Below, in pieces: positions 13,738 to 47,070 of a DNA stretch of 64,000 nt; within the stretch, counting starts at the first letter, position 1; every line of letters starts with the position of its first letter. The stretch comes from Magnetococcales bacterium. GTDB lineage: Bacteria; Pseudomonadota; Magnetococcia; Magnetococcales; DC0425bin3. The translations under genes and the position numbers were made by a program. The stretch spans positions 3,752 through 67,751 of the forward strand of contig JADGCJ010000008.1 in the NCBI GenBank assembly GCA_015229045.1, written 5' to 3'. The notes beneath the pieces were generated by a model. That model searched no databases. It had not been told where the DNA came from and worked only from the letters and a program-made list of their open reading frames with translations.

Positions 13738-13813
<76 letters not shown>

Positions 13814-13821
13814 TATATATC

Positions 13822-13856
13822 AAAGGGTTACAGAGTACGCTGTAGCCCTTTTTTGT
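13822..13856 (+). terminator. Rho-independent terminator of tRNA-Phe
   Basis: AAAGGGTTACAG (13822-13833) pairs with CTGTAGCCCTTT (13840-13851) with a single G-T pair, 6-nt loop, followed by a run of Ts. The stop codon of the convergent integrase remnant (13828) lies inside the stem. Confidence 0.88.
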
Positions 13857-14290
13857 TGGTCTTGTGTAATTCCTGTGTAGTTCTGCCAGAAAAAATCACC
13901 CGCTTTTCTTGATATCGACTTTCCAGGCGATCCATGGCGGTTTGGGTGTGTTCCCCGTTTTGGTGGCTATACCGTTCCACCATGGCCAGGGTCTTGTGCC
14001 CGGAAATCCGTTTGACTGTGGGGAGGTCAATCCCAGCCTGGACCAGGTGGGTGATGGCTGTATGTCGTAACGTGTGCCGAACGATCTGGAAAGGGTCGAG
14101 TGATTCGCGAACCCGACAAGAATCAGCCGACCTTGCCCGGTTTTGAGAGCCCGTTTGAGAGGGATCTTGATCCGAACAACCGGTGGGTGAAGCTGGCGGA
14201 ACTGGTTCCCTGGGACGACACCAGAGACGCACGAAAGGTAACCCCATAGAAACGCGAAAGACGAAGGATTTTTCAGTTTCCATTCACCTA
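13828..14290 (-). pseudogene. Decayed tyrosine recombinase (integrase), C-terminal part
   Basis: The C-terminal catalytic end is readable in one frame: VRHTLRHTAITHLVQAGID (HxLRH box), then SGHKTLAMVERYSHQ (the GH and the Tyr nucleophile). Upstream, integrase-like sequence (PVVRIKIPLKRALKTGQGRLI) is in a different frame, so at least one frameshift is present and the N-terminal half is absent. Located 15 bases from the 3' end of tRNA-Phe in the orientation typical for integrases that use that tRNA as attB. Non-functional. Confidence 0.78.
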
Positions 14291-14307
14291 TCATTCCAAT
14301 TCCAAAT

Positions 14308-14672
14308 CTATAGAGCATTAATAATCCAAGGCCATGCCACAATGGACTTCACACGCGCGTGATCATCTTCCAGAGTGAGAAGAGCCGATTCCAGATGCTG
14401 TTCAAGAGCATCCAGGCTTGCAAACACGTTGTTGTGGAACCACTTCTCCCTCAACTCATCCCAGATATGCTCCATAGGGTTGAGTTCAGGCGAATAGGAT
14501 GGGAGGAACAAAATGCGCATGTTGACTGGCGGAATGAGTGATTGGCCTTTGTGCCATCCGGCCCCATCCATCACCATGATGATCCGGTCGTCTGGGTAGC
14601 GCCCCCCGATTTCGTCAAGAAACACCTGCATGCACACGCTGTTGACGTGCGGCAAGATGAGGCTACTGCAAG
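14308..14672 (-). mobile_element. Truncated IS630-type transposase
   Basis: About 115 residues of a DDE endonuclease: SLILPHVNSVCMQVFLDEI, then IMVMDGAGWHKGQSL (second catalytic Asp), then FLPSYSPELNPMEHIWDELREKWFHN (the last catalytic acid, the E of the PELNPxExxW block). The N-terminal half with the first Asp and the helix-turn-helix are missing; homology stops at about 14670 exactly where TACTGCAAG, the last nine bases of a CRISPR repeat, begins. IS630 elements insert at TA. The fragment therefore abuts, and probably broke, the old end of the CRISPR array. Confidence 0.8.
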
Positions 14673-14714
14673 ATCTCATTCTCCACAGGATGTGAATGTG
14701 CATTCTGTACATTT
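14664..14714 (-). CRISPR. Broken terminal CRISPR unit
   Basis: TACTGCAAG (14664-14672) equals the final nine bases of the repeat and is followed by 42 nt (14673-14714) before the first intact repeat. That length fits the spacer range of the array (35-43 nt), so this is most likely a spacer whose outer repeat was cut off by the event that brought in the transposase fragment. Confidence 0.65.
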
Positions 14715-17700
14715 GTCTCAATCCCCTTAAAAGCGGGGCGATTACTGCAAGTTTGGGACGTGCATATTCACGGTGTCGCCAAACTTAGCAGTCTCAATCC
14801 CCTTAAAAGCGGGGCGATTACTGCAAGTATTATAGACCTGGACACAATTCTTCAACAGTGAACTCGTCTCAATCCCCTTAAAAGCGGGGCGATTACTGCA
14901 AGCTTGCGAATGGAGACTTGTCCGCCGCCGTCGCGGCGGAGTCTCAATCCCCTTAAAAGCGGGGCGATTACTGCAAGCAGAGTAGTAACAGAAAAACATA
15001 CTGTCCTAACGAATAGTCTCAATCCCCTTAAAAGCGGGGCGATTACTGCAAGAAACATAGAGGAAAATAACAGTGAAATTTAAGAATCTTACGTCTCAAT
15101 CCCCTTAAAAGCGGGGCGATTACTGCAAGGGAAGGTTCCAGTTAGGTATCTGTTCGATCAAATCGAGTCTCAATCCCCTTAAAAGCGGGGCGATTACTGC
15201 AAGATGAAATTTATGGCTATTAGGTGGATTGGGGCGTTTCGGGTCTCAATCCCCTTAAAAGCGGGGCGATTACTGCAAGTTGGTTTCTGCCGATTTGAAG
15301 GTCGGGGGGGTCGTTGTCTCAATCCCCTTAAAAGCGGGGCGATTACTGCAAGTCAATAACGGCGGATGGTGTTCAACTCACGCAAGACGAGTCTCAATCC
15401 CCTTAAAAGCGGGGCGATTACTGCAAGCATCGAAATAGTTGCCGACGGAAAAATAGTAAGTGTCCCGTCTCAATCCCCTTAAAAGCGGGGCGATTACTGC
15501 AAGAACTGCGTACCAGTTTGCCCTTTCCCCGGTGATGGTGAAGTCTCAATCCCCTTAAAAGCGGGGCGATTACTGCAAGACAACAATTGTGCAATTGCAA
15601 TTGTCACGAGTGATCAGTCTCAATCCCCTTAAAAGCGGGGCGATTACTGCAAGAGACGAAAGGTCTCAGTGTCGTAGACACAATCATTGATAACAAGTCT
15701 CAATCCCCTTAAAAGCGGGGCGATTACTGCAAGCGCAAAGCCGGGCACAGAGTACTCTGTGCCAAGTTCGTCTCAATCCCCTTAAAAGCGGGGCGATTAC
15801 TGCAAGTTGCGTACTCGCAGGAAACTGAGACGAAAGGTCTCAGTGTGTCTCAATCCCCTTAAAAGCGGGGCGATTACTGCAAGACGATGCAAACGGGAGT
15901 GGCATCAGTGCCAATAACATTTGTCTCAATCCCCTTAAAAGCGGGGCGATTACTGCAAGTCAAACACGTTTTCGAACACTTCGGTTGGTTTTGTCCAATT
16001 GTCTCAATCCCCTTAAAAGCGGGGCGATTACTGCAAGCGAGGGAAACCGCGACTTCGGCCTGATGCAGGCCGGTGTGTCTCAATCCCCTTAAAAGCGGGG
16101 CGATTACTGCAAGAAGAGAGAACTGTTTGAGAAACAGTTTCCGTTTCTTAAGTCTCAATCCCCTTAAAAGCGGGGCGATTACTGCAAGCTCACAATACAC
16201 CTCATTGCCAAGGGCGATGATGTAATGTCTCAATCCCCTTAAAAGCGGGGCGATTACTGCAAGACGGCTATCGCACTACTTGGAAAGGAAAATGAATGGG
16301 TGTCTCAATCCCCTTAAAAGCGGGGCGATTACTGCAAGCTTCTCCTGGGGACGGAGAAGAATACCCGGATCAAGTCGTCTCAATCCCCTTAAAAGCGGGG
16401 CGATTACTGCAAGTTGCGTACTCGAAAGACACTGAGACACAAGGGCTCAGGGTCAGTCTCAATCCCCTTAAAAGCGGGGCGATTACTGCAAGCTTGCGTA
16501 CTCGAAAGACACTGAGTCTCAAGGTCTCAGGGGTCTCAATCCCCTTAAAAGCGGGGCGATTACTGCAAGAAGGAGGAGGAACAACGATGATGATTGCAAA
16601 GTACAAAAAGTCTCAATCCCCTTAAAAGCGGGGCGATTACTGCAAGCCATCAAAATAGTTTTCGATGGAAAAATAATAAGTGTCGTCTCAATCCCCTTAA
16701 AAGCGGGGCGATTACTGCAAGAAACGCCAAGGCGTTTGCAAACAACACGTTTCTTTAGTCTCAATCCCCTTAAAAGCGGGGCGATTACTGCAAGGGAACA
16801 GTTGTTGTTCGCGCAACTCAGCGAACAAGAAGTCTCAATCCCCTTAAAAGCGGGGCGATTACTGCAAGGAAGGAGGGATGAATCGTTGGCTTTCCAGGAA
16901 GATCGAGTCTCAATCCCCTTAAAAGCGGGGCGATTACTGCAAGGTTGTGCGAGGTGTTAGTATGAACGGCAACATAAGTCCGACGTCTCAATCCCCTTAA
17001 AAGCGGGGCGATTACTGCAAGTGTTCCGGCTCGGAAACATGTTCCGGAAGCAACAACAATCGTCTCAATCCCCTTAAAAGCGGGGCGATTACTGCAAGAA
17101 GGTGTTTGGCTTGTTACAGAAGGCTAACTAAAACAGAGTCTCAATCCCCTTAAAAGCGGGGCGATTACTGCAAGATGAAGGAAATTGGCGAGCTTATGGG
17201 GGAGCCGCGAGCTAAGGTCTCAATCCCCTTAAAAGCGGGGCGATTACTGCAAGGGGTTCATCCCAGACACTTCTAAAAATCAATAATCCTAAATGTCTCA
17301 ATCCCCTTAAAAGCGGGGCGATTACTGCAAGAGATATCATCCGAAACTCCTCAGATGAACAAATAAAGAGTCTCAATCCCCTTAAAAGCGGGGCGATTAC
17401 TGCAAGGCCGCCTGAGGTGCAAAAGAAGGCGGCACGGCGATTGTGTCTCAATCCCCTTAAAAGCGGGGCGATTACTGCAAGGATTTTGTGATGATGTGGT
17501 CTAAGCAGAGAGTGACTCTTTGTCTCAATCCCCTTAAAAGCGGGGCGATTACTGCAAGGCCACCTACTGGCCGCCTGAGGTGCAAAAGAAGGTGGCAGTC
17601 TCAATCCCCTTAAAAGCGGGGCGATTACTGCAAGGGTCGAGTTGACCCCGTCACAAGTGAGGAAGATACGGGAGTCTCAATCCCCTTAAAAGCGGGGCGA

Positions 17701-20700
17701 TTACTGCAAGAGGGTCTGGGAGGCCCTGTCCGAGGGGTAATTGATTGTCTCAATCCCCTTAAAAGCGGGGCGATTACTGCAAGGGACGGGCCGCGCTGGA
17801 CAGTCAGATTGCTCTGACTGTGTCTCAATCCCCTTAAAAGCGGGGCGATTACTGCAAGAGTTACTAAGGCGGACCAGTACAACAAGACGGGCTTTTTGTC
17901 TCAATCCCCTTAAAAGCGGGGCGATTACTGCAAGTTGGCGGTCCGGGAGCGGCAGTATGCCGAGCATATCCAGTCTCAATCCCCTTAAAAGCGGGGCGAT
18001 TACTGCAAGACGCTTGATGACCCGGGACGCGGTGGTGGAGCTGGCCTTGTCTCAATCCCCTTAAAAGCGGGGCGATTACTGCAAGACAGAAGAGGCAACG
18101 AAAGCCGGCGCCCTTGACTGGTCTCAATCCCCTTAAAAGCGGGGCGATTACTGCAAGAAGGCAACGGATGATCCGCATGCCCCGTTCGTACCTGGTGAGT
18201 CTCAATCCCCTTAAAAGCGGGGCGATTACTGCAAGATCATATTTAGTTTTTCCTGGGGAGGGGCTGGGAGGCCCGTCTCAATCCCCTTAAAAGCGGGGCG
18301 ATTACTGCAAGCCACTCGAAAAGAAAAAACGCGAGAGAGGCAGTAATAGTCTCAATCCCCTTAAAAGCGGGGCGATTACTGCAAGACGATGAAAGGGGAG
18401 GCCCTTGGGATGGGCCGCGCTGGACAGTCTCAATCCCCTTAAAAGCGGGGCGATTACTGCAAGACGGGACTTCGGTCCCGGATCATATTTAGTTTTCCCG
18501 CGTCTCAATCCCCTTAAAAGCGGGGCGATTACTGCAAGTTCGGTCCCGGATCTTATCTAGTTTTCCCTCGCGAGGGTCTCAATCCCCTTAAAAGCGGGGC
18601 GATTACTGCAAGTTCGTAAGAGACGGGGTTGACTTAACCCTGTCACAAATAAGAAGTCTCAATCCCCTTAAAAGCGGGGCGATTACTGCAAGCTTGTGAG
18701 AGACGGGTTTGACTTAACCATATCACAGAGTCTCAATCCCCTTAAAAGCGGGGCGATTACTGCAAGGGGTAAACATCTCACCTTCCAAACCGGAATTGGA
18801 TATGAGTCTCAATCCCCTTAAAAGCGGGGCGATTACTGCAAGTCTCTTAACCCGGATGAGGCAGGAGACGACACATATGAGTGTCTCAATCCCCTTAAAA
18901 GCGGGGCGATTACTGCAAGGACGAGCTTGTCAAATACGTGACGGAAACTGAACAATTGTGTCTCAATCCCCTTAAAAGCGGGGCGATTACTGCAAGGGAA
19001 AAACCAACGTGGAATTAAATGGTCCAAGGTGTGTCTCAATCCCCTTAAAAGCGGGGCGATTACTGCAAGAAAACATGCAAAAACATGTTGGCGAACAAGG
19101 TATCAATGAGTCTCAATCCCCTTAAAAGCGGGGCGATTACTGCAAGAAGAAGATGGATTTGATAGAAGATTTCACTACGCAAGTCTCAATCCCCTTAAAA
19201 GCGGGGCGATTACTGCAAGATTGTGATGGCGGGTGGAGTCCAGACCACAATGAAATGTCTCAATCCCCTTAAAAGCGGGGCGATTACTGCAAGTTGGAAT
19301 GCGCCGATCTGCGTGGCGCAGATTTGTCGTGTCTCAATCCCCTTAAAAGCGGGGCGATTACTGCAAGAAGATACGGGACTTCGGTTCCGGAGCCTATCTA
19401 TGCGTCTCAATCCCCTTAAAAGCGGGGCGATTACTGCAAGCCTGCATCTGTCGTCCGGAATTCGGACGGCACAATTCGTCTCAATCCCCTTAAAAGCGGG
19501 GCGATTACTGCAAGAATGCTGAAAATTCGAGCGACAGTTTCACAGCAACTGTCTCAATCCCCTTAAAAGCGGGGCGATTACTGCAAGCGTTTGTGGTGGT
19601 TCTGGTGAAACGTACACGAAGGAACGTGTCTCAATCCCCTTAAAAGCGGGGCGATTACTGCAAGCCCGCCCCGCCCCCCGCCGCCGCCCTAGCTGTTTTG
19701 CTGTCTCAATCCCCTTAAAAGCGGGGCGATTACTGCAAGCCACCCGTCCTCCCCACGAAAAATCCTCTTGCCATCTACGTCTCAATCCCCTTAAAAGCGG
19801 GGCGATTACTGCAAGGGTCGCCTGGACCTGGTATGTCCGGATACTGGTCCGGCTTCGTCTCAATCCCCTTAAAAGCGGGGCGATTACTGCAAGAAAATCA
19901 AGGGATTCGGCCCGGGGGCTTATCTCACCGTCTCAATCCCCTTAAAAGCGGGGCGATTACTGCAAGGGGGGGTAATCGATTACGATGAGAGGGGAGGAGG
20001 AGCGTGTCTCAATCCCCTTAAAAGCGGGGCGATTACTGCAAGCGTACGCACTCAAAATCATCGCGGCGCCGCGCCCGAAGGTCTCAATCCCCTTAAAAGC
20101 GGGGCGATTACTGCAAGACGATGAGAGGGGAGGCGGTCCCTGGGGGAGAGACCCGTCTCAATCCCCTTAAAAGCGGGGCGATTACTGCAAGATTGTGTCA
20201 ATCACCGGAAAAATCGACGGCATCGTTGTGCGTCTCAATCCCCTTAAAAGCGGGGCGATTACTGCAAGAATCATCAATACAGTAAACAAGGTGGCCTCTT
20301 TCAACCAGTGTCTCAATCCCCTTAAAAGCGGGGCGATTACTGCAAGACGCAGAGGAAGCGTTCTTGCGCGTGTTGCGCAGGGAAGTCTCAATCCCCTTAA
20401 AAGCGGGGCGATTACTGCAAGATGTCAGAAGCGCAACACGCCGCAGCAGCGGCGTGGGGGCGTCTCAATCCCCTTAAAAGCGGGGCGATTACTGCAAGAT
20501 CAGCATTCACGACGCTAGAGTACGTGACGCACGTCAGGTCTCAATCCCCTTAAAAGCGGGGCGATTACTGCAAGATAAAGGTCACAACACGTGTCACGTT
20601 TCTCGCGACACGTGGTCTCAATCCCCTTAAAAGCGGGGCGATTACTGCAAGAATGTTTGGATATCTTGTCAACAACCGGGGACATCGTCTCAATCCCCTT

Positions 20701-23087
20701 AAAAGCGGGGCGATTACTGCAAGACGGTAATCTACTGGCAACACGTACTGAAACCCAGACGTGGTCTCAATCCCCTTAAAAGCGGGGCGATTACTGCAAG
20801 TTTCGTTTAAACGTTTTATTGCGATACCTGTTATTCCAGTTTTGTCTCAATCCCCTTAAAAGCGGGGCGATTACTGCAAGTTTTAAAAAAAATGCTTTGG
20901 CATTCCTGTCAAAGCATGTCTCAATCCCCTTAAAAGCGGGGCGATTACTGCAAGAGGTGGCCGGGGGTCGTGACCTGGTGGCGGAAAAGATGAGCCGTCT
21001 CAATCCCCTTAAAAGCGGGGCGATTACTGCAAGCAAACAGTTCCCGTTTTTGAACAAGATGCTTGGGCATTGTCTCAATCCCCTTAAAAGCGGGGCGATT
21101 ACTGCAAGAGTAATGGACAGGGAGGACATGAAGGCGATAGATGAGCTTCTGTCTCAATCCCCTTAAAAGCGGGGCGATTACTGCAAGGATATTGTTGTGA
21201 ACATTGTCGCGAAAGGCGACGATGTTATGTCTCAATCCCCTTAAAAGCGGGGCGATTACTGCAAGACTATTGTGTCAATCACGGACAAAATCACCGGCAT
21301 CGTTGTCTCAATCCCCTTAAAAGCGGGGCGATTACTGCAAGTGCAATTGCGACGTTGGTTCGCACAGGCGAGTATTATTGTCTCAATCCCCTTAAAAGCG
21401 GGGCGATTACTGCAAGAAAAGTGATGACAGACGCAAAAATCATCGCGGCACCTTCGGTCTCAATCCCCTTAAAAGCGGGGCGATTACTGCAAGTAAAATA
21501 ACTCCAATTCGTCTTGCGACAGGGTATCGGCGTCTCAATCCCCTTAAAAGCGGGGCGATTACTGCAAGAACGAAAGTGCCGGAGGGGCACTCGGTGATTG
21601 ACACTATTGTCTCAATCCCCTTAAAAGCGGGGCGATTACTGCAAGGGGTATACGACAGACCCGCGTTTAGCAGGTTTGACGAACAGTCTCAATCCCCTTA
21701 AAAGCGGGGCGATTACTGCAAGAAAAAAGAGAGGAGGCCCGTAAGAAATGGGCATCACTAGAGTCTCAATCCCCTTAAAAGCGGGGCGATTACTGCAAGT
21801 CCCATGAAATTTACAGCCATAAGATGGTTGGGAGCATTGTCTCAATCCCCTTAAAAGCGGGGCGATTACTGCAAGCGATTGCGGAAAAATCTCCAGGAAT
21901 GAAGTCGATTGACTGTGTCTCAATCCCCTTAAAAGCGGGGCGATTACTGCAAGGAAGGGTTACCCTTCTCGTGTCCCACGGGGTCGACCTGTCTCAATCC
22001 CCTTAAAAGCGGGGCGATTACTGCAAGAAGTATAATTACGCAGGAGGAAAAAGATATGCTCTTGCGCGGTCTCAATCCCCTTAAAAGCGGGGCGATTACT
22101 GCAAGAGGGATGGCCCGCTGGCTATCCAGAGAAGAGTCAAAAGGTCTCAATCCCCTTAAAAGCGGGGCGATTACTGCAAGCCCGCCCCGCCGCCCCGCCG
22201 CCCCGCCGCCCCGCCGCCGTCTCAATCCCCTTAAAAGCGGGGCGATTACTGCAAGGGGGAGGGGGTAGGAGGCCCCCACCGGGGGGTCATAGAGTCTCAA
22301 TCCCCTTAAAAGCGGGGCGATTACTGCAAGGAGTTGGGCAGGAAACCCAACGTTGTACAAACGGGAGAGAAGTCTCAATCCCCTTAAAAGCGGGGCGATT
22401 ACTGCAAGGTTATTTTAATGAAATTTCTAGCAGTCAGGTGGTTAGGAGGTCTCAATCCCCTTAAAAGCGGGGCGATTACTGCAAGCCGTTACTGCGGCGT
22501 CGCGGCTATGCGCGGAAAAACGGTCTCAATCCCCTTAAAAGCGGGGCGATTACTGCAAGGAGCGGAAACGCCCGGGTGTACGGCACCGCCCTAGTGAGTC
22601 TCAATCCCCTTAAAAGCGGGGCGATTACTGCAAGGCGTTATTAGCCCGACGCTTGAAGCATCCGTGTTAGAGTGTCTCAATCCCCTTAAAAGCGGGGCGA
22701 TTACTGCAAGGACACATTACAATATAATCAGTTGGTTGTGGTATCACAAGGTCTCAATCCCCTTAAAAGCGGGGCGATTACTGCAAGGGGACAAAAATGC
22801 TAGCACAATACAGAAAGGAACTGTTGTCTCAATCCCCTTAAAAGCGGGGCGATTACTGCAAGAGTAGCCCACGTTGTCAGGCTTTGCGGCACGCAAAGCC
22901 GTCTCAATCCCCTTAAAAGCGGGGCGATTACTGCAAGTTGTCTGATTGATTGATTGCTTGAGGAGTGAAAAATGTTGTCTCAATCCCCTTAAAAGCGGGG
23001 CGATTACTGCAAGCGGGATACCGGCATCACTATCATACCCCAGGAGGAGAGTCTCAATCCCCTTAAAAGCGGGGCGATTACTGCAAG
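14715..23087 (-). CRISPR. CRISPR array, 111 repeats, 110 spacers, type III-A associated
   Basis: I count 111 copies of a 37-bp repeat beginning GTCTCAATCCCCTTAA and ending GCGATTACTGCAAG on the plus strand, with no variant seen, and 110 spacers of 35-43 nt (mean near 39). On the minus strand the repeat ends GGGGATTGAGAC, so an 8-nt ATTGAGAC crRNA handle and minus-strand transcription are inferred; the inner CCCC/GGGG can form a small stem for Cas6. cas1-cas2 and a non-coding leader lie at the right end, making right-hand spacers the newest. Spacers are not random: many plus-strand readings encode related peptides, start codons with ribosome-binding sites, and hairpins (see findings). Open frames running through the array are only repeat translations. 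Confidence 0.99.
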
Positions 23088-23296
23088 CCTCCCATCTCCA
23101 TCCCACTGAATACGGGGAGAATTATGGCACACTTTTCGTAACCATGGCAAGGTGCATGACGACGAGACACCATTTTTCCCGAAAAAGTTTGGCTGGCAAC
23201 AAGAAATTACTATAACTCCAAACAGTTGCCATCATCCGTAACCTCCCCAGAGAAAAAATCCTCTGGAGGTTACGAAAAGCGTCTGCGACGCATTCA
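23088..23296 (-). promoter_or_regulatory. CRISPR leader region with repeated CGTAACC motif
   Basis: 209 non-coding bases between the last repeat and cas2. CTTTTCGTAACC at 23131-23142 recurs inverted as GGTTACGAAAAG at 23268-23279, and a third CGTAACC at 23237 forms the left arm of a long hairpin (CGTAACCTCC ... GGAGGTTACG, 23237-23274, extended by AGAG/CTCT with a two-base bulge). The hairpin lies just downstream of cas2 and could end the cas transcript; its T-run is in the loop, not after the stem. The repeated motif near the array is a candidate site for leader-binding factors. I cannot place a sure array promoter. Confidence 0.6.
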
Positions 23297-23587
23297 TCAG
23301 ACAACGAACACCCTCTCCTCCCCCGGGATAGGCCCAGGCACACCCATGCGGTGAACCTTGCCAACGCAATGAGCGCAAAGAGGATAAATCAACACGGAAT
23401 CCTGCTTGGAGGAGATGATGGCCTTGATCGCCAAAAGCATTTTGTCAAAGAGCAAAGGATCAAGAACGGCTTCAAAAACACTCTCCTGCACCCGGTCGCC
23501 AAAACCGTCCAGACAAACAGCCAGGCGCCGCCGTCGCCGATCATGGGCTACGTCATAGCAGATGATGTATCGCTGACCCCTATTCAT
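23297..23587 (-). CDS. cas2: CRISPR adaptation endonuclease Cas2
   Basis: 96 residues, ferredoxin fold: MNRGQRYIICYDVAHDRRRRRLAVCLDGFGDRVQESVFEAVL with the conserved first-strand Asp (YDV) and the short C-terminal strand pairing segment. Partner of Cas1 in the spacer integration complex. ATG 23587 is chosen; an earlier in-frame ATG adds six residues. Last gene before leader and array. Confidence 0.93.
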   Translation of the reverse strand: MNRGQRYIICYDVAHDRRRRRLAVCLDGFGDRVQESVFEAVLDPLLFDKMLLAIKAIISSKQDSVLIYPLCAHCVGKVHRMGVPGPIPGEERVFVV

Positions 23588-23631
23588 GGTGATTATCCAA
23601 TACAACCATGGTCAACACAACAAACCATCGA

Positions 23632-23746
23632 TACCTTACCCACACAGAAAAAATGGCTGACAAGTGCCCTCACCCAGGTCATGCAAATCCCGACCTGGGC
23701 GCCGCTTTTTACCTTACCCACGCAGCAAAAATGGCTGGTAAGCGCC
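23632..23746 (-). repeat. Duplicated cas1 3' end flanking a hairpin
   Basis: About 38 bp spanning the last codons and stop of cas1 (23709-23746) recur 77 bp downstream at 23632-23669 with few changes (QPFLLRG-stop versus QPFFLCG-stop). Between them, CCCAGGTC and GACCTGGG (23673-23699 region) form an 8-bp hairpin. A comparable arrangement occurs at the csx16-csx1 junction. Confidence 0.7.
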
Positions 23747-24796
23747 TCCACTGCGCAAGGCAGCCGCCAAACGATCCACCTGGCGCCGAATCAACGTGGC
23801 AGGAGTCGCCCTCTTCACTCTATCACCCTCCTCATCGCTCTCTTCACCACCACCTTCGTCAATCACCTCCGGAATGGGACGCTCCAAATATTCCCCCCAG
23901 GCACGAAAAAATACCTTAAGCCCAGCCCGGGTCAAACGTACCCCACCCGCCGCCTCAGGGTCCGCCTCGAACATCTCCGGACGCACGATACGCAAATTAA
24001 CCACCCGCAACACAAAACGATCCACCACCGGATGCCGAAACTCTTCCAATAAATCCAAAGCCAGACTCGGCCGCCCGGGACGCAAGGCATGAAAGAACCC
24101 CACCGCAGGATCCAATCCCCGGGCCTCCAACGTGCCGCCGATCAGATTGCCCAGCAAAACATAGCCAAAAGAGAGCAAGGCATTGGCCGGATCAGGCGGC
24201 GGACGCCGTTGCCGACCCGTAAAACCGATCTCACCACGAAACCCCTCCCCAAAAGCACCAAAATAGGCACGGGCAGCGTTCCCCTCGATGCCAAGCAACT
24301 GCTCGGCCTCCTGGCAAGCAACGATCCTCTCGTCGGCTCCGTTGATCTCCCGCATGGCCTCGGCCACCGAGTCCAACCCGGGATAGTTGGCCTGAATGCC
24401 ACGCAAAACAGCCACGGCATTGGCGCACTTGCCCGCCACGATCCGGCGAGCAATCCCCATGGCTGCCACAGGGTCCATGGCGCACCGATACTGGGCCATG
24501 CGCAAATCCCCGGATTTCGCCAAAGCCGGCACCAAACGCCCCAAAAAACGCCCGTTCCAACCAAACCAGGCCACACCGATACCCTGTTCGAGGCAAAGAT
24601 GCGTGGCGTTGGCCGTGATATGCACCCGCCCCACCAAACCAACCATCTCCAGACGATGCGACGCCACGCCCAAAAGAATCGAACGGGTCGTCGCTGCCGC
24701 CTGACCACCCGCAACATCCGCGTCCAGCGTCACCTGCAAACTCGCCCCGGCATGCCGTACCGTAGCACCCTGCTCGGTCACGTAGAGAGAAGGCAT
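23714..24796 (-). CDS. cas1: CRISPR integrase Cas1
   Basis: 360 residues. Metal-site residues are recognisable: E171 in LLGIEGNAARAYFGAF, H236 in GFFHALRPGRPSLALDLLEEFR and E251 in the same block. No reverse-transcriptase or Cas6 domain is fused to it, so it is a stand-alone DNA integrase by length. It starts 6 bases after csx1 on the same strand and is followed by cas2 after a 126-bp gap that contains a duplicate of its own 3' end. Confidence 0.96.
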   Translation of the reverse strand: MPSLYVTEQGATVRHAGASLQVTLDADVAGGQAAATTRSILLGVASHRLEMVGLVGRVHITANATHLCLEQGIGVAWFGWNGRFLGRLVPALAKSGDLRMAQYRCAMDPVAAMGIARRIVAGKCANAVAVLRGIQANYPGLDSVAEAMREINGADERIVACQEAEQLLGIEGNAARAYFGAFGEGFRGEIGFTGRQRRPPPDPANALLSFGYVLLGNLIGGTLEARGLDPAVGFFHALRPGRPSLALDLLEEFRHPVVDRFVLRVVNLRIVRPEMFEADPEAAGGVRLTRAGLKVFFRAWGEYLERPIPEVIDEGGGEESDEEGDRVKRATPATLIRRQVDRLAAALRSGGAYQPFLLRG

Positions 24797-24802
24797 GGTG
24801 CG

Positions 24803-25987
24803 TTACCTTTTGCTGATACCGAGATTCTTGAACAGTTTTTCTAATTCGCGACGCAAGTTTTCTTCAGACTCAAGCGCTCTTTTGATGTTGGCGTCTTTGG
24901 GAGATATTCCGTGCGCCATGGAATTTCTAAGGGCCTTTAATATATTGAATTCAGATTTACTCCTGAGTGATATATCGGCTTTTTCTCGATCGTCATAGTT
25001 GTCCGGGAACATCCGTTCCTCAAGACATCTCCTTGTGACAAGGGCCTCGAAACCATAAATGGCTGCTCGCAGATAATCTTTTCGTTTGAGATAGTCCAAC
25101 GCCAGGCGTTCTTCTCGGGCAGCCCGGTCTTTCTCCTTGAACCAAGAGATCCTTGCCTCCAAAGCCTCTCTGAACAAATTGGCAGCGGGGGGTAAATCCT
25201 GCGCATCCTTGAACCAGCCATGGAAAGTGGAAACCTGATCCCTGGCCTGGGCCGAATTGCTCGTGCGTTCATAAAAGGCCGCCTTTTTTAATGTCTCCAC
25301 CGGACTTCCGGGATTGTCGGCACCCAAAAGGTCGGCAAATACCCCATAGTTGCCACTCTGATCATAACGATCCACGGCACCGATCCAGTCGGCGATGCTC
25401 AACAACCCATCCAGGCGCAAGACGGGGGCTTCGTTGCCACCGTCGCGCATGTCGTAGGCGCCATAATACAGGCCGCCAATCCTGGCCTTTTTTACCGTTT
25501 GCAGGTACAGGGCACTCAGCAGGCCCAGCATGGGCAGGATGCGGAATCCATGGGTCAAATCAATAAAAACCTCATCCCTCTCCTGTACCTCGCTGGCCAG
25601 GATCTCCAGAATCCTGGTCTGTTCTTTTGAGTCGCGGCCATAGGGAATAATTCGCAAACGGCAGGGGGTTTCCAGACTCTTTTCCAGTAACGGTGTCAAC
25701 CCTTGCAACCGTTCTTCTCCAACCCGATTGCCATCCACTTCATCCACGATGGCCAATCTCTCCTCGATGAACTCATTGCCCTGGCCGATATCGTCAAAAA
25801 AGACATCCCACATGCTGCCGCTGGTACCAAGCATAACCATCCGATCCGGTCGCAACTGTCTGGTCAATGCTTGCCCGAAATACCTGGTTTCCTCGATGTC
25901 CCCGGAGTCGAACCGATATTTGGTTTTGTCATATGAACCCTCTTTACGTCGCACCTTGCCCAAAAAGCTGATCAATACCTTGCTCAT
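24803..25987 (-). CDS. csx1: Csx1-type CARF-HEPN ribonuclease (TM1812/DxTHG family)
   Basis: 394 residues. N-terminal Rossmann-like CARF domain (MSKVLISFLGKV, then MLGTSGSMWDV) with the family signature DLTHG at residues 143-147; C-terminal HEPN domain with RxxxxH as RNSMAH at residues 354-359. Enzymes of this kind are switched on by cyclic oligoadenylate made by Cas10 and cut RNA without sequence choice. AGGAGGGGAGAGCATC just before the ATG is supplied by a duplicated copy of the csx16 3' end. Starts a sub-operon csx1-cas1-cas2. Confidence 0.88.
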   Translation of the reverse strand: MSKVLISFLGKVRRKEGSYDKTKYRFDSGDIEETRYFGQALTRQLRPDRMVMLGTSGSMWDVFFDDIGQGNEFIEERLAIVDEVDGNRVGEERLQGLTPLLEKSLETPCRLRIIPYGRDSKEQTRILEILASEVQERDEVFIDLTHGFRILPMLGLLSALYLQTVKKARIGGLYYGAYDMRDGGNEAPVLRLDGLLSIADWIGAVDRYDQSGNYGVFADLLGADNPGSPVETLKKAAFYERTSNSAQARDQVSTFHGWFKDAQDLPPAANLFREALEARISWFKEKDRAAREERLALDYLKRKDYLRAAIYGFEALVTRRCLEERMFPDNYDDREKADISLRSKSEFNILKALRNSMAHGISPKDANIKRALESEENLRRELEKLFKNLGISKR

Positions 25988-26178
25988 GATGCTCTCCCCT
26001 CCTGCTGTTTATCCTCGATGCGATCAGTGCGACGATTATCGCACTGAACAAATTGGGGGGTGTACGATCTTCTCCAGGCCGATGTTATAACCGATCCGAT
26101 ATCAGTGCGACGATTATCGCACTGATCAATAGGACTATCATGATGCTCTCCCCTCCTGCTGTTTATCCTCGATGCGAT
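25986..26178 (-). repeat. Duplicated csx16 3' end flanking twin palindromes
   Basis: The 39 bp at 26140-26178 (end of csx16 with its stop) recur at 25986-26024 directly before csx1. The 115 bp between hold two copies of a 24-bp palindrome with arms TCAGTGCGA and TCGCACTGA around CGATTA, at 26024-26047 and 26102-26125. In the original arrangement csx16 stop and csx1 start would have overlapped as ATGA; the insert has separated them by about 150 bp. The paired palindromes resemble a REPIN-type element or a double operator. Confidence 0.75.
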
Positions 26179-26449
26179 ACTCCTCGATCCTCGCGCCGCA
26201 AGCGGTCATCTCTTCCTTGGTCAGCTCTCGTCCTCGCCATGCGGAGGGCAATTCCAGCGAAAGATGCAGATAACGCGCCCCCCGGTGGCAAATGCGTGCC
26301 GCAAGGTTGACCGGCAGAGAGCCGATCACCATATCGCCTGCCTGAATGATCTCCGGGTCCAGATGCTCGACCCGAACGTCGGCGGCTACGCCATTGTCGT
26401 GTGCCCAAGCCACCGCTCCCGGGTGGCGACTGACAAAATAGATGGTCAT
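26138..26449 (-). CDS. csx16: CRISPR-associated protein Csx16
   Basis: 103 residues with the Csx16 pattern MTIYFVSRHPGAVAWA, VEHLDPEIIQAGDMVIGSLPVNLAARIC, RGARYLHLSLELP and the C-terminal MTACGARIEEY. The family is confined to type III loci and is proposed to degrade the cyclic oligoadenylate messenger (ring nuclease) and so end the Csx1 response. It overlaps cas6 by four bases, so it belongs to the main effector operon. No catalytic residue can be assigned from the sequence alone. Confidence 0.85.
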   Translation of the reverse strand: MTIYFVSRHPGAVAWAHDNGVAADVRVEHLDPEIIQAGDMVIGSLPVNLAARICHRGARYLHLSLELPSAWRGRELTKEEMTACGARIEEYRIEDKQQEGRAS

Positions 26450-27429
26450 ACAAGGATTCCCCCTTTTTCTTGTGCTGCGTCATCCATCATCCAGTATCTC
26501 CCCAACCCAAAGGTGGCATTCTTGCCGACATGCAACCACTGGCCGAGGTAGAGCAAGGACCAGAACGGTGTCAGGTCACCCCGTAAGGTCCAACGCCCGG
26601 TGACACCGCCCAGGGTCATCTCCTGTTGCTGGCGGCCCGACCAGCGCGTCCAGTCCCGCCAGCCCAGAGATCCATGCGCCGTAAGTGCCTCCGCCCGGTG
26701 CGTGAGGTCGGAAAAATCCAACCCCAGCCGCACTCCGGCATGAAATTCGGCCAGCAGGGAGATGCGCCGGGCCAGGGTCAGCAAAAAATCCCGTGGGGTC
26801 AAGCGACCCGGACCCAGGGGTTTGCCCTCCCGCTGAATGCGCAAGGGCGTCAGCAAGTTCAGGGTGATCCGCTCCGTTGCCGAAGGTAGCATGCTTGCGG
26901 GGCTGATCTCCCTGGCGTGGTCGATCACCACCCCGACCGTTGGATCATAAACCACCTGTTCCGATCCATCGGGCAGAACATGGCGCACACCGAGGAGTCG
27001 TGCCGTGCCGTTTTCGTGGCCGACCCCCCGGCCCAGGGCGCGTTGCCACGCCAGAATGATCAAGGGCAACTGCGCGAGTGCCCGTCCTACCAGCACCATG
27101 CCGAAGGTCAACCGTTCACCGGGGTGGAAATGGTGTTTTCCCCATGCCGGTGGCTCGATGATGTAAGGGTTCGGGATGCGGGCAAAATGCTGGACCGCAT
27201 GGCGTTCTGCCGGTGGTGGAGCCTCGAAGATCATCGACCAGGGGCAGGTGTTGGTGATGCCACACCCGGCGCATGTCGCTGCATCGGTCAGGCAGGTGAT
27301 GCGCCGCAACGCTGCCCCGAATACCCCGCGCAACGCCGATCCGGCATACTCCGGCAACCGCATGGGGGTTTCGACTTCCCAGTCGAAGAGATAGCGGGCA
27401 ATGGAAAAAGGGTGAGATGGCGTATTCAT
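26446..27429 (-). CDS. cas6: Cas6-type pre-crRNA endoribonuclease
   Basis: 327 residues of the RAMP superfamily. N-terminal ferredoxin fold with YLFDWEVETPMRLPEYAGSALRGVFGAALR, a cysteine cluster CLTDAATCAGCGITNTC (about 45-62) that may bind zinc, and a C-terminal Gly-rich loop HVGKNATFGLGRYW typical of Cas6. It should cut repeat RNA to leave the ATTGAGAC handle. Overlaps csm5 and csx16 by four bases on either side. Confidence 0.88.
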   Translation of the reverse strand: MNTPSHPFSIARYLFDWEVETPMRLPEYAGSALRGVFGAALRRITCLTDAATCAGCGITNTCPWSMIFEAPPPAERHAVQHFARIPNPYIIEPPAWGKHHFHPGERLTFGMVLVGRALAQLPLIILAWQRALGRGVGHENGTARLLGVRHVLPDGSEQVVYDPTVGVVIDHAREISPASMLPSATERITLNLLTPLRIQREGKPLGPGRLTPRDFLLTLARRISLLAEFHAGVRLGLDFSDLTHRAEALTAHGSLGWRDWTRWSGRQQQEMTLGGVTGRWTLRGDLTPFWSLLYLGQWLHVGKNATFGLGRYWMMDDAAQEKGGILV

Positions 27430-28955
27430 GTCAATAAAGTATCCTGAAGGGCTTGCAGTCTCTTTTTGTCCACACTTTTAAGCTTGGCGGGAAGTTCATC
27501 GCGGCAAACTCGGGCCAGTTCGGCCTTGTCCTCTGGGAGCCAGGTTGCGGCCTCTTTGACCAGTTTGCCAACGTCCTGCCACAACTGGCCACTGATGGGT
27601 TGGGGGAGAGGGGTATCACGGATGGTCTTCTGCAACTCCTCAATCTGGCGCCGGTTGGGGGTCATGCTGGCCAGTTCATCTTCAAGCTTTTTTTTCTCGG
27701 CTAACCGCTTTTCTTCTTCAATTTTGCGTTTTTCGTCTTCGACCCGGCGTTGTTCAGCTTCGGTTTGACGTTTTACCTCAGTGGCTTGGTGCCTTTTAAC
27801 AGACTCGCTTTTCTGCTCCGCAAACTGTTGCTGCCGAATTTTGCTTTTTGCAGAAATATCGCTGCCCAGTTTGTGCAGGGTTGATATCAGCGGGTTGGCT
27901 GCTGGTTCCTCCCCTTCCTGAACCACTTCGACAAACAACCAGGCAAAAGGGGCATAACCTCCGCTTTCCATACCACATACCGTGGTGGAGATTGGTAATT
28001 TATCTCCGTGTTTTGTTTTTATTTTCCTGTATTTTTCGATGGTCAGAAACTCAGCTCCATCGTGTTTCCCAACCCTCAGCAAAAAACCACTTTTTGCAGC
28101 CATGGAGTGTCTGATCTCCTGTGCAAGATCTGTCCATTCCGGCGTTTTCATTGCTTCAAGCATGTCGATCTGCTTTTTAAAGACAATGCCCCCATAAAAT
28201 CCATTGCATATATCAGCGATGTCATAAGGCCACCCGTGTTGTACAGTCATCCTGGCCACGAAGCTGCGAACCATGAAGGGAGAGATGCACTCCACCAGGT
28301 TTTGGGATGGATCCTTGACCGTTATGGTGGAGCCATCTTTCCAGTGTCTTCCATGACGGGTCATGATGCGGGTCGGTTCGCATGTCCTGGCATCCGCAAG
28401 GTGGGCATCGCCAATCTTGAGGAGGCGCAGGGGATCTGTGTCGAAAGATCCTCCGAGTATTTTTTTCTCAAGTTCTTTGGCGTTTTTGAATTCATGGACA
28501 TTTTTTGTTTTTATTAGATGATTCAGAATAGCGGTTCTGATGGCACCTTTTATAGATGTTCCGGGCAGGATGGGGTTTTGGGAAATGGGGTCATAGATTG
28601 TCCGCTCAATGACGCATTGCCCCTTTCCCGTAATCCAATTTTTATGACGAGCCGCCGCCGCGTTAGTCATGGGCACATAACGGTCCGCAGTAAAGGGAAG
28701 ATCTGTTTCCTGACCATAGAGCTTTTGCAGGTTGACCAGGCTATCTTTTCCGGCAACGGCCCGTTCCAATTTTTGACGACCTTCATGGTTTGCAAACGCA
28801 CCCGTTGCCGCCAAATCCAGCAGAGGGTAGAGAGAGTTCTCTTTGACCACATAATGCGTCGGCTCATAATCCTCGCCGCAACCGATGTGAATGGGCGACA
28901 GAGTGGAGATGACGAGGCGATAGTTCCTGAGGAACGGCTCTTTGGGTAGTGGCAT
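27426..28955 (-). CDS. csm5: Type III-A effector subunit Csm5
   Basis: 509-residue RAMP protein that caps the 3' end of crRNA in the Csm complex. Seen: LVISTLSPIHIGCGEDYEPTHYV (about 15-36), ILPGTSIKGAIRTAIL (Gly-rich loop, about 130) and CNGFYGGIVF. Csm5 is usually about 350-400 residues; the excess is a C-terminal Lys/Glu/Gln coiled coil (about residues 375-445, containing EQRRVEDEKRKIEEEKRLAEKKK) and a short helical tail. ATG 28955 is chosen because it lies 4 bases after csm4; the frame stays open upstream but that sequence is antisense-like filler. Confidence 0.88.
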   Translation of the reverse strand: MPLPKEPFLRNYRLVISTLSPIHIGCGEDYEPTHYVVKENSLYPLLDLAATGAFANHEGRQKLERAVAGKDSLVNLQKLYGQETDLPFTADRYVPMTNAAAARHKNWITGKGQCVIERTIYDPISQNPILPGTSIKGAIRTAILNHLIKTKNVHEFKNAKELEKKILGGSFDTDPLRLLKIGDAHLADARTCEPTRIMTRHGRHWKDGSTITVKDPSQNLVECISPFMVRSFVARMTVQHGWPYDIADICNGFYGGIVFKKQIDMLEAMKTPEWTDLAQEIRHSMAAKSGFLLRVGKHDGAEFLTIEKYRKIKTKHGDKLPISTTVCGMESGGYAPFAWLFVEVVQEGEEPAANPLISTLHKLGSDISAKSKIRQQQFAEQKSESVKRHQATEVKRQTEAEQRRVEDEKRKIEEEKRLAEKKKLEDELASMTPNRRQIEELQKTIRDTPLPQPISGQLWQDVGKLVKEAATWLPEDKAELARVCRDELPAKLKSVDKKRLQALQDTLLT

Positions 28956-28959
28956 CGAT

Positions 28960-29964
28960 TCAGCTCCTCTCTTGTTTCGGCAGGCGAATCCCCACCACCG
29001 GGCAGTAACCCTGATGGACAGTTGCCGGGATGGCTTTGGAGAGGGTGCCCTCCCCACCCAATCCCTGACCAACAAAGCGGCGGTCAGGATTGAATGTATC
29101 TTGGGGTGTCAGCACGGCTCCGGCGCGAGCCAGCAGGATGGGATTTTTGTAGACCTGTCCGGTCAGGGCTGCCACATCGCCATGCCGACCAAAGCGGGTG
29201 AAGATTTGATAGAAACTCCGTTCTGGGTCAAACCCTCCACCCTGTGGCGCACAAAAACCCAAGGTCAGCCAGGCATTGCTCTCTTCTTGATTTGGCAAGC
29301 TTGCCGCACAAACCTTTTCCACCAAAAACTTTCCCAGGCCAACATTGGCATCCTTGCCAAATCCGGTTTGGCCGATCGCACATAAGGCCTCTTCCAAATA
29401 TTCCTGCTCCAGCCGCTCAGGGTCGTACAGAAGCCAGAGTTCCAACCGTGCCGCTGGCGGAAACCAGGTTTGTTCCACGGTATAGGGGGCAAAACCATCC
29501 TCGCCGGTGGTGCCGGTCAGCCGGTTGATGGCGTTGCGGGGTTGTGGTTGGATTACACGTCCTGCCTTGTGCTTTCTTCCGGATTGCACCGTTTCTGGAT
29601 CGGGAGGCCAAATTTCTTTTTCCGACGCGCAGAGTGTGATCCACTCGGCGAGAGGCTTGTCGTACTGATTCCAAGGCATCCAGGTGCGTTTTTTATCGGC
29701 TTTGCGATCTTTTCCCTCGATCTTCTCCTCCTGCCCCGGAAAAAATCCACCCGGCAACTGGGGCCGGGGAATAGACCCGGCAGGGAAAAAATCCGACACC
29801 ACGAGAAAAGGCTTGCCCTGGGTGTACTCTGTCAACAACTCGTCCAGCCAATCTTCGCCAAGGGTGTAGCGCAATCTCCAGCAGAGTTGCCCGAACAGGG
29901 TGTCGCCGTGGAGCGGGGTGGCAAAGGCCGTCAGGGGCTTGAGGGTGACAAGCAGCGTTTTCAT
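28960..29964 (-). CDS. csm4: Type III-A effector subunit Csm4
   Basis: 334-residue RAMP protein that binds the crRNA 5' handle together with Cas10. Begins MKTLLVTLKPLTAFATPLHGDTLFGQLCWRLRY, the typical Csm4/Cmr3 start, and contains the Gly-rich QTGFGKDANVGLGKF (about 205-220). Overlaps csm3 by ATGA. Confidence 0.9.
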   Translation of the reverse strand: MKTLLVTLKPLTAFATPLHGDTLFGQLCWRLRYTLGEDWLDELLTEYTQGKPFLVVSDFFPAGSIPRPQLPGGFFPGQEEKIEGKDRKADKKRTWMPWNQYDKPLAEWITLCASEKEIWPPDPETVQSGRKHKAGRVIQPQPRNAINRLTGTTGEDGFAPYTVEQTWFPPAARLELWLLYDPERLEQEYLEEALCAIGQTGFGKDANVGLGKFLVEKVCAASLPNQEESNAWLTLGFCAPQGGGFDPERSFYQIFTRFGRHGDVAALTGQVYKNPILLARAGAVLTPQDTFNPDRRFVGQGLGGEGTLSKAIPATVHQGYCPVVGIRLPKQERS

Positions 29965-30704
29965 GACTTCTTGGCCTCGAACGGCTTGGTTGCGTCGAGT
30001 TGGCTCTGATGTCCATCGCTGGTGAGGTTGAACTTGATCTGCCCATATCCCCGCGAGCCGGACCCGCCCAGGCTGTCCATTTCCAACAGTTTTAGCCCAT
30101 TGAAAAGAGTGTTCTGGAGTTTATCAGCGTCATCCATGCCCAAAACCTTGATGGCCACCTCAAACTGAAACTTCGCCCCCGCCGGAACCCGCTCGACGTT
30201 GCGGGGATGTTCCGCCACCCCGCGCACCCGGTCGATGGTGTTTTCCATCTTGATTTCGGTGAGGGAAAGATTCTTCTTATCGATTTTCTCGACCCATGAT
30301 TGGTCGAGCAGGCAGTCCCGGAAAGAGAGGCGGGTGGGGCCGAATTTTTCGGCATCAGACTTCTCCATCTCATCTCCACCCGACACCCCGAATAATTTGA
30401 GGATGTTTTCCGCTTTTTCTTTCTGTGGATCACCATCTTTTATGTCTTTCCATGCTTTGTAGCTCATAGGTCCATATCCCTTTCCAACAGGATTCATAGC
30501 TGCCAGCCCGGCATGCCATTCCAGCAGGCTGCGGATTTTGCCTTTGAGGCTGCTGCCCGGAATGTAAGGTTGCCCGGTATGGGGGTGGCGAATGATGGGG
30601 TTGTCCGACCCGCCGATGTGCATTTCATTGTTGCCGCTGCCGATATGCAGGCCGGTCAAGACTTCGATGGTTCCGGAGATGATCTCAATATTGTCGAGTT
30701 TCAT
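29961..30704 (-). CDS. csm3: Type III-A backbone subunit and target RNase Csm3
   Basis: 247-residue RAMP protein forming the Csm filament that cuts target RNA every six nucleotides. Contains LTGLHIGSGNN, the catalytic Asp34 in IGGSDNPIIRHP, the PGSSLKGKIRSLLE Gly-rich loop and GGSGSRGYGQIKF near the C-terminus. With Asp34 present, RNA cleavage activity is expected. Seventeen bases after csm2. Confidence 0.95.
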   Translation of the reverse strand: MKLDNIEIISGTIEVLTGLHIGSGNNEMHIGGSDNPIIRHPHTGQPYIPGSSLKGKIRSLLEWHAGLAAMNPVGKGYGPMSYKAWKDIKDGDPQKEKAENILKLFGVSGGDEMEKSDAEKFGPTRLSFRDCLLDQSWVEKIDKKNLSLTEIKMENTIDRVRGVAEHPRNVERVPAGAKFQFEVAIKVLGMDDADKLQNTLFNGLKLLEMDSLGGSGSRGYGQIKFNLTSDGHQSQLDATKPFEAKKS

Positions 30705-30721
30705 GATCGATACCCTCTCAT

Positions 30722-31183
30722 TCAGTTAGAATGTTGCTCCAGTTCTTTGTAAAAACCCATGATTGCTTCCATGAACAGCTTGAAACATTGCAAAGTTTTT
30801 GGATCCTTGACCTGCTTCAGGCTTTTATCCACAAGTTCAACGAAACCCTGGTCCACCAATTCTTTTCTGCCATGGGCATAGGCCGTCTTGGCATTAAGCA
30901 TGCGGATGAAAGGGATCAGATCCTCATATTTTTTTGGGTCATTCCCCACCTTTTCCGCCCACATGCAGATTTCGTCATAAAATCTCCGAAGTTGGGTAGA
31001 CTTGTTGCTGTCTTTCTTGGCTTGCCTGGCTTTGTTCAATTTTTCGGCCCACGCCTTGGCTGTTTTGTCGAATAATGTTTCACTTACCGGATCAAAGACG
31101 ATGGCCAATGAACTGGCAGCTGGAGTTGTAGGGGGTGCGGGTTTTGTAGGGGTAGGATTTTTGAAGTCATTCATGTTCATCAC
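30722..31183 (-). CDS. csm2: Type III-A small subunit Csm2
   Basis: 153-residue, mostly helical protein; Csm2 lines the target-RNA side of the complex. The core TQLRRFYDEICMWAEKV and FIRMLNAKTAYAHGRK are typical of Csm2. It has a Pro/Thr-rich N-terminal extension of about 25 residues. Its presence, rather than Cmr5, fixes the subtype as III-A. Overlaps cas10 by four bases. Confidence 0.9.
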   Translation of the reverse strand: MMNMNDFKNPTPTKPAPPTTPAASSLAIVFDPVSETLFDKTAKAWAEKLNKARQAKKDSNKSTQLRRFYDEICMWAEKVGNDPKKYEDLIPFIRMLNAKTAYAHGRKELVDQGFVELVDKSLKQVKDPKTLQCFKLFMEAIMGFYKELEQHSN

Positions 31184-33834: not shown

Positions 33835-34842
33835 TCACTCCTCCCGACCAAGATAGTGTTTGTCCACCGCCGGGAGGTAGCCCCCGGCGGTGTTGTTGAT
33901 GCGCAGGTTGCGCAGGAGCGCCGCATTGCCTTGTTTTTTTATGATTGCATTGATTTTGCTTATATATTCCGGAATGCGTTCCAGAAAATCCACTGGATTC
34001 ATGTCCCGGGCATAGCCAGGCTTGGTGGTATGGTTTTGGTAATAGGTGGAAAACTCCTTGCACAGTGCGGCCATCTGTTTGGCGGGCAGGGCGCAGGCAA
34101 AGCAACCGCTGCACCCAGGAAGCTGGGGACGTTGGCACCGTTCCTTGGTTTGCGACAGGATCCATTTGTAGAGCAGGAAAAGCAGGGGGGTGAGGCGGAT
34201 GGAGCGGCCCAGAAAGTGGATCCCGTCCGGTGTGCATCGTAACTGTTCGCGGGCAGGTTGGGCGTGGGAGATCCCCTTTCCCGGCAACAAGACTCGTTGC
34301 AGGCGGCTGGCCCCATCGGCCTGGTGCAGGGATGCCGTTGTGTGGTCCCATGTTCTGGCCGGGTCATCAGGTTTCAGAAAATGGGGATGATGTTCAAAGC
34401 GAGGGTCGGTACGCAGCACCCACAGGCCATCGCCGCGTTCCTCTTCCAGGTACATGGCAGCATATTGGGAGGCGAGAGAGATCATCCAGTTGACCCCGCC
34501 TCCCAGGACCATCTGCATGGGGATGTCGTCGCGTTCGGTGGTGAAGGTTGCCTCCAGGATTTGGCAGAATTGTCTTTGGGAGAGGGCGCCATCGTTGCCA
34601 TCCACGGTGTCGCCGCGCCAGACAAGCCGGACATGCGGCGGCAGGCCGGTGTATCCTGTGGCTGCCTGCAGGATGCCGATTCCCTGAATTGTGGAAAGAA
34701 TGGTGATGGTTCGCAGAGAAAAGAGGTCGGCCATCAGCCATGTTGTCAGGGTGACAACCGGGGCAGCCATGCCGGCGATGATGCAGATATCACTGGTCAT
34801 GAGGTTTTCTTGGCGCGGGGGCATATCGGGGGCAGGGTACAT
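33835..34842 (-). CDS. CARF-like protein with C-terminal winged helix, first gene of cas operon
   Basis: 335 residues, start either 34842 or an in-frame ATG at 34800. Residues about 17-165 resemble the NE0113/ring-nuclease type of CARF Rossmann domain: CIIAGMAAPVVTLTTWLM, then ITILSTIQG, then VLGGGVNWMISLASQYAAMY at the place where relatives have GGRKxM. Residues about 205-240 (CTPDGIHFLGRSIRLTPLLF then LLYKWILSQT) look like an OmpR-type winged helix, followed by a cysteine-rich CSGCFACALP and a helical tail. Domain calls are by pattern only. Immediately upstream of cas10, so either a signalling-dependent regulator of the operon or a ring nuclease. Confidence 0.6.
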   Translation of the reverse strand: MYPAPDMPPRQENLMTSDICIIAGMAAPVVTLTTWLMADLFSLRTITILSTIQGIGILQAATGYTGLPPHVRLVWRGDTVDGNDGALSQRQFCQILEATFTTERDDIPMQMVLGGGVNWMISLASQYAAMYLEEERGDGLWVLRTDPRFEHHPHFLKPDDPARTWDHTTASLHQADGASRLQRVLLPGKGISHAQPAREQLRCTPDGIHFLGRSIRLTPLLFLLYKWILSQTKERCQRPQLPGCSGCFACALPAKQMAALCKEFSTYYQNHTTKPGYARDMNPVDFLERIPEYISKINAIIKKQGNAALLRNLRINNTAGGYLPAVDKHYLGREE

Positions 34843-46939: not shown

Positions 46940-47007
46940 TCTCTCCGGGCTGGTGTCATGCGGCGAGTTGTCTTCTCTCCGGGCTGGTGTCATGCGGCGA
47001 GTTGTCT
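46940..47007 (+). repeat. 34-bp perfect tandem duplication
   Basis: Two identical 34-bp units starting TCTCTCCGGGCTGGTGTCAT at 46940-46973 and 46974-47007, between the ferritin-like gene and the lipoprotein gene. Non-coding by the start chosen for the latter. Confidence 0.9.
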
Positions 47008-47070
47008 TGGAGCGAACGTGTTTGCCACGCCCCCCCGGCATGGGGGGTGTCTCTTGCCATCGAGGCGACC

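Follow-up and report, generated by a model that had tools for sequence, protein, structure and literature searches.

Overlapping variants of one protein end among the spacers of a type III-A CRISPR array in a Magnetococcales bacterium

In type III CRISPR-Cas systems of Thermus that work without a reverse transcriptase (RT), the spacers that protect are drawn from a single strand and from a narrow early region, an outcome of selection, and unselected uptake is strand-neutral (PMC7515739). Mapped type III spacers are on average 65% coding-strand (PMC8482600), and RT-containing type III systems are reported to target uncharacterised ribovirus groups (PMC10847044). We describe here a type III-A CRISPR array at positions 14715–23087 of a 64,000-nt stretch of DNA (hereafter the window) from a Magnetococcales bacterium (assembly GCA_015229045.1, contig JADGCJ010000008.1, positions 3,752 to 67,751 of the forward strand), in which fourteen spacers encode overlapping variants of the C-terminal ~60 residues of a single protein.

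The array appears to resemble that of Thermus thermophilus facing phage phiFa (PMC7515739), an RT-free type III case with one-strand spacers complementary to transcripts and a narrow hot region; the fourteen spacers, too, are confined to a single strand and a narrow region. The phiFa study concerned one known phage in a laboratory infection, with a hot region of several early genes, whereas the present array is a natural one and samples, from several variants, about 60 codons of one gene that had no convincing match in the collections searched. Stem-loop uptake by the RT-free type III-A system of Streptococcus thermophilus (Zhang 2021, as described in PMC9048733) is alike in system type and in its hairpin-rich spacers near start codons, but there the coding strand and host or plasmid hairpins are taken up, and here the guides are predicted to match the mRNA of an unseen source. 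Type III arrays of Arthrospira (PMC5513706) also have spacer sources that are absent from databases; they are served by an RT-Cas1, however, and none was seen at this locus. The authors of that study, as of 2017, knew of no spacer matching an RNA virus. Spacers against Obelisks (63 reported, of which nine were placed in type III; PMC13096302) document folded RNA elements, as ours may do, but Obelisks are circular RNAs of ~1 kb encoding Oblin-1, and our array has several spacers resembling gene starts and no excess of spacer-to-spacer complementarity. In the open-licence literature searched we found no RT-free type III-A array with such a pattern.

In the array, the 111 repeats of 37 nt are all identical, and no two of the 110 spacers (35–43 nt) are. 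Read on the plus strand, the fourteen are spacers 39 (17635–17673, VELTPSQVRKIR), 40 (17711–17746, GLGGPVRGVID), 41 (17784–17821, DGPRWTVRLL followed by a stop), 47 (18236–18274, SYLVFPGEGLGG), 49 (18386–18426, DERGGPWDGPRWT), 50 (18464–18501, RDFGPGSYLVFP), 51 (18539–18575, FGPGSYLVFPRE), 52 (18613–18655, FVRDGVDLTLSQIR), 53 (18693–18729, LVRDGFDLTISQ), 62 (19368–19403, KIRDFGSGAYLC), 69 (19894–19929, KIKGFGPGAYLT), 70 (19967–20005, GVIDYDERGGGA), 72 (20118–20154, DERGGGPWGRD) and 100 (22256–22293, GEGVGGPHRGVI). Along the protein their order is 53, 52, 39, 62, 69, 50, 51, 47, 100, 40, 70, 72, 49, 41, and the composite, all of it plus-strand, runs from LVRDGFDLT to DGPRWTVRLL and the stop; spacers 72 and 49 differ in length by one residue. 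A preliminary description of this DNA had listed the same fourteen coordinates and peptides, and each coordinate is indeed a spacer start at which the quoted peptide is read. It had also proposed that the C-terminus can be rebuilt from the array alone, which holds as far as the stop, but the length is ~60 residues and not ~55. The spacer at 15353 (no. 9), offered there as a possible fifteenth member, reaches a score of 28 with none of the fourteen and is not supported.

Spacer pairs with a peptide score of at least 32 number 28 when both members are read in plus frames, against 0–3 in seven shuffled sets and three in mixed-orientation frames (two combinations pooled); the 16 such pairs in minus/minus frames are the mirror image of the related pairs. 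Overlapping pairs among the fourteen are never identical, their codon-aligned identity being 76% over 18 of 19 pairs (pair 70/49 is omitted owing to a length difference), and five spacers that overlap at one site all differ from each other, which requires no fewer than five sampled variants. Across all groups of related spacers, including those described below, 36 homologous pairs with 309 codons differ at 66, 33 and 129 first, second and third positions, with pN/pS of 0.30 in frame, rising to 1.06 and 2.0 when the frame is shifted; the nineteen pairs within the fourteen (147 codons) give 31, 14 and 63 differences and pN/pS of 0.26. The 40 grouped spacers and the 36 pairs were picked by hand, and the pairs share spacers and were aligned in a chosen frame, which favours that frame. 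The codon pattern of the fourteen, as of all groups, is purifying. Peptide overlap within one protein, origin from different variants and a preponderance of synonymous change had all been claimed in the preliminary description, and are borne out respectively by the plus/plus excess over shuffles and mixed strands, by the lack of any identical overlapping pair and by the codon alignment. The peptides are short, and chance resemblance might be invoked for their overlaps, but the same plus/plus excess and codon-position pattern refute it and leave it a practically negligible probability.

Four features go beyond the preliminary description: a burst in array order, the strand logic of the guides, ten further peptide groups and strong RNA folding. 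Thirteen of the fourteen lie within 34 consecutive array positions (39–72), as tight a cluster as was seen in 0 of 20,000 permutations, and they include unbroken runs at 39–41, 49–53 and 69–70; spacer 100 is the sole member outside the burst. The binomial probability that 14 of 110 spacers, all drawn randomly from a single genome, fall in a stretch of ~180 nt is 0.003 for a 4-kb source genome and 2e-6 for an 8-kb one, but 0.74 for one of 1.5 kb, so that the earlier contention that random capture does not explain the sampling stands for the two larger sizes and fails for a very small genome. For the 13 of 34 spacers of block 39–72, picked post hoc, the probability with a 4-kb genome is 1e-8.

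The repeat, when reverse-complemented, has as its end ATTGAGAC, which we take to be a typical guide-RNA handle, and the interval between array and cas2, a putative minus-strand leader (23088–23296), contains two promoter-like sites on that strand (23150–23121 and 23199–23172) where 0.1 would be expected in the region. Because of this repeat end and these two sites, the array (14715–23087) is predicted to be transcribed on the minus strand from the cas2 side, with the newest spacers near 23087, and each guide would therefore be antisense to the readable plus frame. Guides antisense to transcripts would fit all three observations, the end of the repeat, the promoter-like sites and the plus frames that can be read through.

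On balance we think it probable that the fourteen spacers were taken up repeatedly from many variants within a single unseen family of phages, and that they were kept since their guides are predicted to pair with its transcripts. Uptake itself may strike many places; hosts would retain those guides whose target transcript is abundant or made early, and for that reason one transcript stretch would accumulate spacers. With the spread of variants altered in this stretch, further spacers against it would be acquired, giving runs such as 39–41 and 49–53. In type III systems, target recognition by the Csm complex activates Cas10 and a CARF-HEPN nuclease, and the same two effectors would be switched on here. 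Repeated uptake with selection appears to be the best-supported account of the burst, and would apply to a DNA or an RNA phage genome alike. Several points weigh against it: no protospacer was found; the direction of array transcription is a prediction; block 39–72 was defined after seeing the data; the grouped spacers were recognised through same-strand similarity, so that strand uniformity is shown for them only; uptake hot spots or priming could yield the same burst; and strong hairpin content is not predicted by selection alone. Priming, in which an older, partly matching spacer directs type III uptake to the same place and strand, would suit the adjacent runs at 39–41, 49–53 and 69–70, which strike neighbouring sites in different variants; selection accounts for the same runs, however, and as priming in type III was still an open question in 2022 (PMC9048733) we regard it as improbable.

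By its gene content, cas10/csm1 with csm2–csm5 and cas6, the locus beyond the array is a type III-A CRISPR-Cas locus, and it includes cas1 and cas2. All genes are on the minus strand: cas2 (23297–23605), cas1 (23714–24796), a gene for a Csx1-type CARF-HEPN protein (24803–25987), csx16 (26138–26449), cas6 (26446–27429), csm5 (27426–29075), csm4 (28960–29964), csm3 (29961–30704), csm2 (30722–31183) and cas10/csm1 (31180–33834). No RT match was found among the open reading frames (ORFs) scanned, a subset of those in the window. The 360-aa cas1 product has no RT fusion and the neighbouring genes were identified as non-RT, which, within the window, sets the locus apart from RT-associated type III systems. 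An ORF of 335 aa upstream of cas10 (33835–34842) has weak CARF/Csx1 resemblance only. Farther off, ORFs of 779 and 1072 aa at 46987–52541 have no Pfam or NCBIfam match above curated cut-offs. Pattern searches of the genome collection gave no relative of HrcA, encoded at 1134–2210, nor of the exact core of the CRISPR repeat. At the old end of the array (13738–14721) stands a tRNA gene, followed by a fragment of a tyrosine integrase and the remnant of a DDE transposase. Self-targeting was not seen: spacer matches elsewhere in the window reach only 12–14 identical bases or 16/17.

A further 26 spacers fall, by hand grouping, into ten recurring peptide groups, three of which (KIIAAP, FPFL and NISPT) are based on 4–10 aligned residues. 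Nine of the ten are confined to blocks 1–38 (14752–17597) and 73–110 (20192–23050), which have MKFxAIRWLG, AYSxxTExxGL, IVSITxKIxGIV, AKGDDV, KQFPFL and other recurring peptides in common; the tenth consists of spacers 71 and 89. Overlap counts put the sequence space that was sampled at roughly 8 kb for the whole set and 12 kb for the spacers outside the fourteen, crude estimates that undetected homology would lower. One hairpin is kept with a two-sided change between spacers 20 (16189–16226) and 86 (21188–21228), whose peptide ends in GDD and resembles what we take to be polymerase motif C; spacers 30 and 105 have a reading that is presumably motif-B-like, and both are weak hints only. In spacers 13 (15654–15696) and 91 (21569–21608) a hairpin survives two to three two-sided changes.

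As RNA, the plus-strand spacers fold at −8.27 against −6.55 for dinucleotide shuffles, and their mean folding excess over such shuffles is −1.65 to −1.76 kcal/mol. This is beyond the ranges of 13 DNA-phage stretches and one double-stranded RNA segment (−0.01 to −0.80 kcal/mol; two of the 13, unnamed IMG/VR contigs, were treated as DNA) and of ten sets of 110 from the host window (+0.18 to −0.48), and inside that of 82 Leviviricetes loci (mean −1.24, standard deviation 0.38, range −2.31 to −0.35). Reference values vary between runs (lambda, −0.70 and −0.29), and the measure overlaps other phages, 10 of the 82 Leviviricetes loci lying above −0.85. The excess is −1.86, −1.05 and −2.14 in blocks 1–38, 39–72 and 73–110; that of block 39–72 (−1.05 ± 0.45) compares with −2.00 ± 0.36 for the two others pooled (n = 76), which possibly derive from a second, more folded source, although the folding difference between the other 21 spacers of block 39–72 and the rest is not significant (P 0.10). 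Randomising synonymous codons weakens the folding of the 40 grouped spacers (z −5.7, 0/300), both in the fourteen (z −2.8, 5/1000) and in the other 26 (z −4.5, 0/1000). Partner spacers fit each other's structures above random synonymous versions (mean z −1.0 over 32 ordered comparisons), with 73 of 260 predicted base pairs broken in the partner and 12 changed on both sides. Obelisks are rod-shaped; long-range rod pairing was not seen here, the strongest inter-spacer duplexes being no stronger than in three shuffled sets. Among the spacers that fold well, the plus strand has an advantage over the minus strand of −1.60 ± 0.37 (Leviviricetes −1.14, DNA phages −0.40), while the shuffle-corrected strands are nearly alike (−1.65 and −1.48).

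An excess at the level of single-stranded RNA (ssRNA) phages, its weakening on codon randomisation, the better folded plus strand, the two-sided changes in pairs 20/86 and 13/91, the recurrent GDD ending of spacers 20 and 86 and the sense-only grouped spacers would all suit a small RNA-genome phage outside the known Leviviricetes, with an RT from another host locus copying pieces of its folded plus strand into DNA for insertion by Cas1-Cas2. Yet the ORFs examined include no RT, the folding measure overlaps, the strands differ little once shuffle-corrected, folding is weakest in block 39–72, to which the fourteen largely belong, hairpins could be captured by preference, and the searches described below, in the phage collection and 82 Leviviricetes loci and with a replicase profile, gave no convincing match; we regard an RNA phage as possible, but less likely than not. 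The preference just named could instead be the key: RT-free type III-A Cas1-Cas2 may favour hairpin-forming single strands of a DNA phage, and such a preference, together with selection, would produce the hot stretch. The S. thermophilus system is reported to favour stem-loops and sites 10–50 bp downstream of start codons (PMC9048733), no RT is nearby, and a Shine-Dalgarno-like word with an ATG occurs in 11 of 110 plus-strand spacers, against one on the minus strand and 2.5–3.7 expected, though some of the 11, such as spacer 49, are not gene starts. That preference was described, however, for the coding strand and with no direct defence role (PMC9048733), and our guides are predicted to match mRNA. 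Moreover, 44 Thermus type III spacers, from roughly cut arrays in which some pieces hold repeat remnants, have a hairpin excess of 0.02 ± 0.35, i.e. none; pairing has no 5′/3′ bias inside our spacers; their loop centres are slightly different from those of DNA-phage pieces (P 0.009), with no clear difference from those of Leviviricetes (P 0.06); and IMG/VR, phage and plasmid records hold no match at the sensitivity used. We judge a DNA phage with hairpin preference quite possible, if somewhat short of probable.

IMG/VR yielded no convincing protospacer, even with degenerate DNA patterns, in a search whose positive control for Leviviricetes found 342 relatives (best 80 kept); two candidates, L001 and L010, were dismissed as chance matches. 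Phage records (tblastn and blastn) and plasmid records had no genuine source match. Among 5.8 billion proteins there were 55 candidates, none scored, the 60-residue query reaching only proteins of 33–105 residues. The composite has no real match in Pfam or PHROGs or among solved structures (best E 1 and 0.34), and among tailed DNA phages it resembles only Streptomyces phage tape-measure proteins, weakly (best E 0.09 over 50 residues). The single matching family that the preliminary description had proposed to seek in viral metagenomes and prophages did not emerge convincingly from IMG/VR or phage records.

Leviviricetes, first favoured on folding, were rejected as far as tested. A replicase profile of 84 replicase-like ORFs chosen by length and the GDD word, of which at least two look like chance frames, scored at best −1.6 bits on the spacers (spacer 69; minus-strand control −2.1), and with five divergent relatives included −1.7 bits (spacer 69 again; control −1.9). 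Leave-one-out profiles, given 110 random 38-mers from each of the five, reached best scores of 9.3–14.7 bits, and because the profiles recognise random pieces of divergent relatives but no spacer, a known Leviviricetes source is rejected within the reach of this test. Neither the 82 Leviviricetes loci nor the phage collection contained sequence relatives of the spacers. An ordinary Leviviricetes ssRNA phage would account for the folding level and for a 16-nt identity between spacer 69 and two levivirus replicase genes at a common FGPGA peptide, but besides failing the replicase test, the composite matches 0 of at least 1,288 ssRNA phage records in the phage collection and, unlike a replicase, stops 33–40 residues past FGPG; such a source is very improbable.

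Rather doubtful, in our estimation, is the wider proposal that the array is a long-term memory, kept without a CRISPR-linked RT, of RNA phages outside the known Leviviricetes, with two folded plus-strand genomes, one giving rise to blocks 1–38 and 73–110 and the other to the burst. If the burst reflects selection, as in the account by repeated uptake that we prefer, the array would show, in natural material and in order, how a type III system tracks variants of a single phage gene, for which descriptions have until now come from laboratory infections. Should the folding stem from an RNA genome, the array would give access, through its host, to an unknown group of RNA phages, and would raise the question of how a system lacking its own RT recorded them. 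In both cases the ~60-residue profile can serve as a concrete bait in metatranscriptomes.

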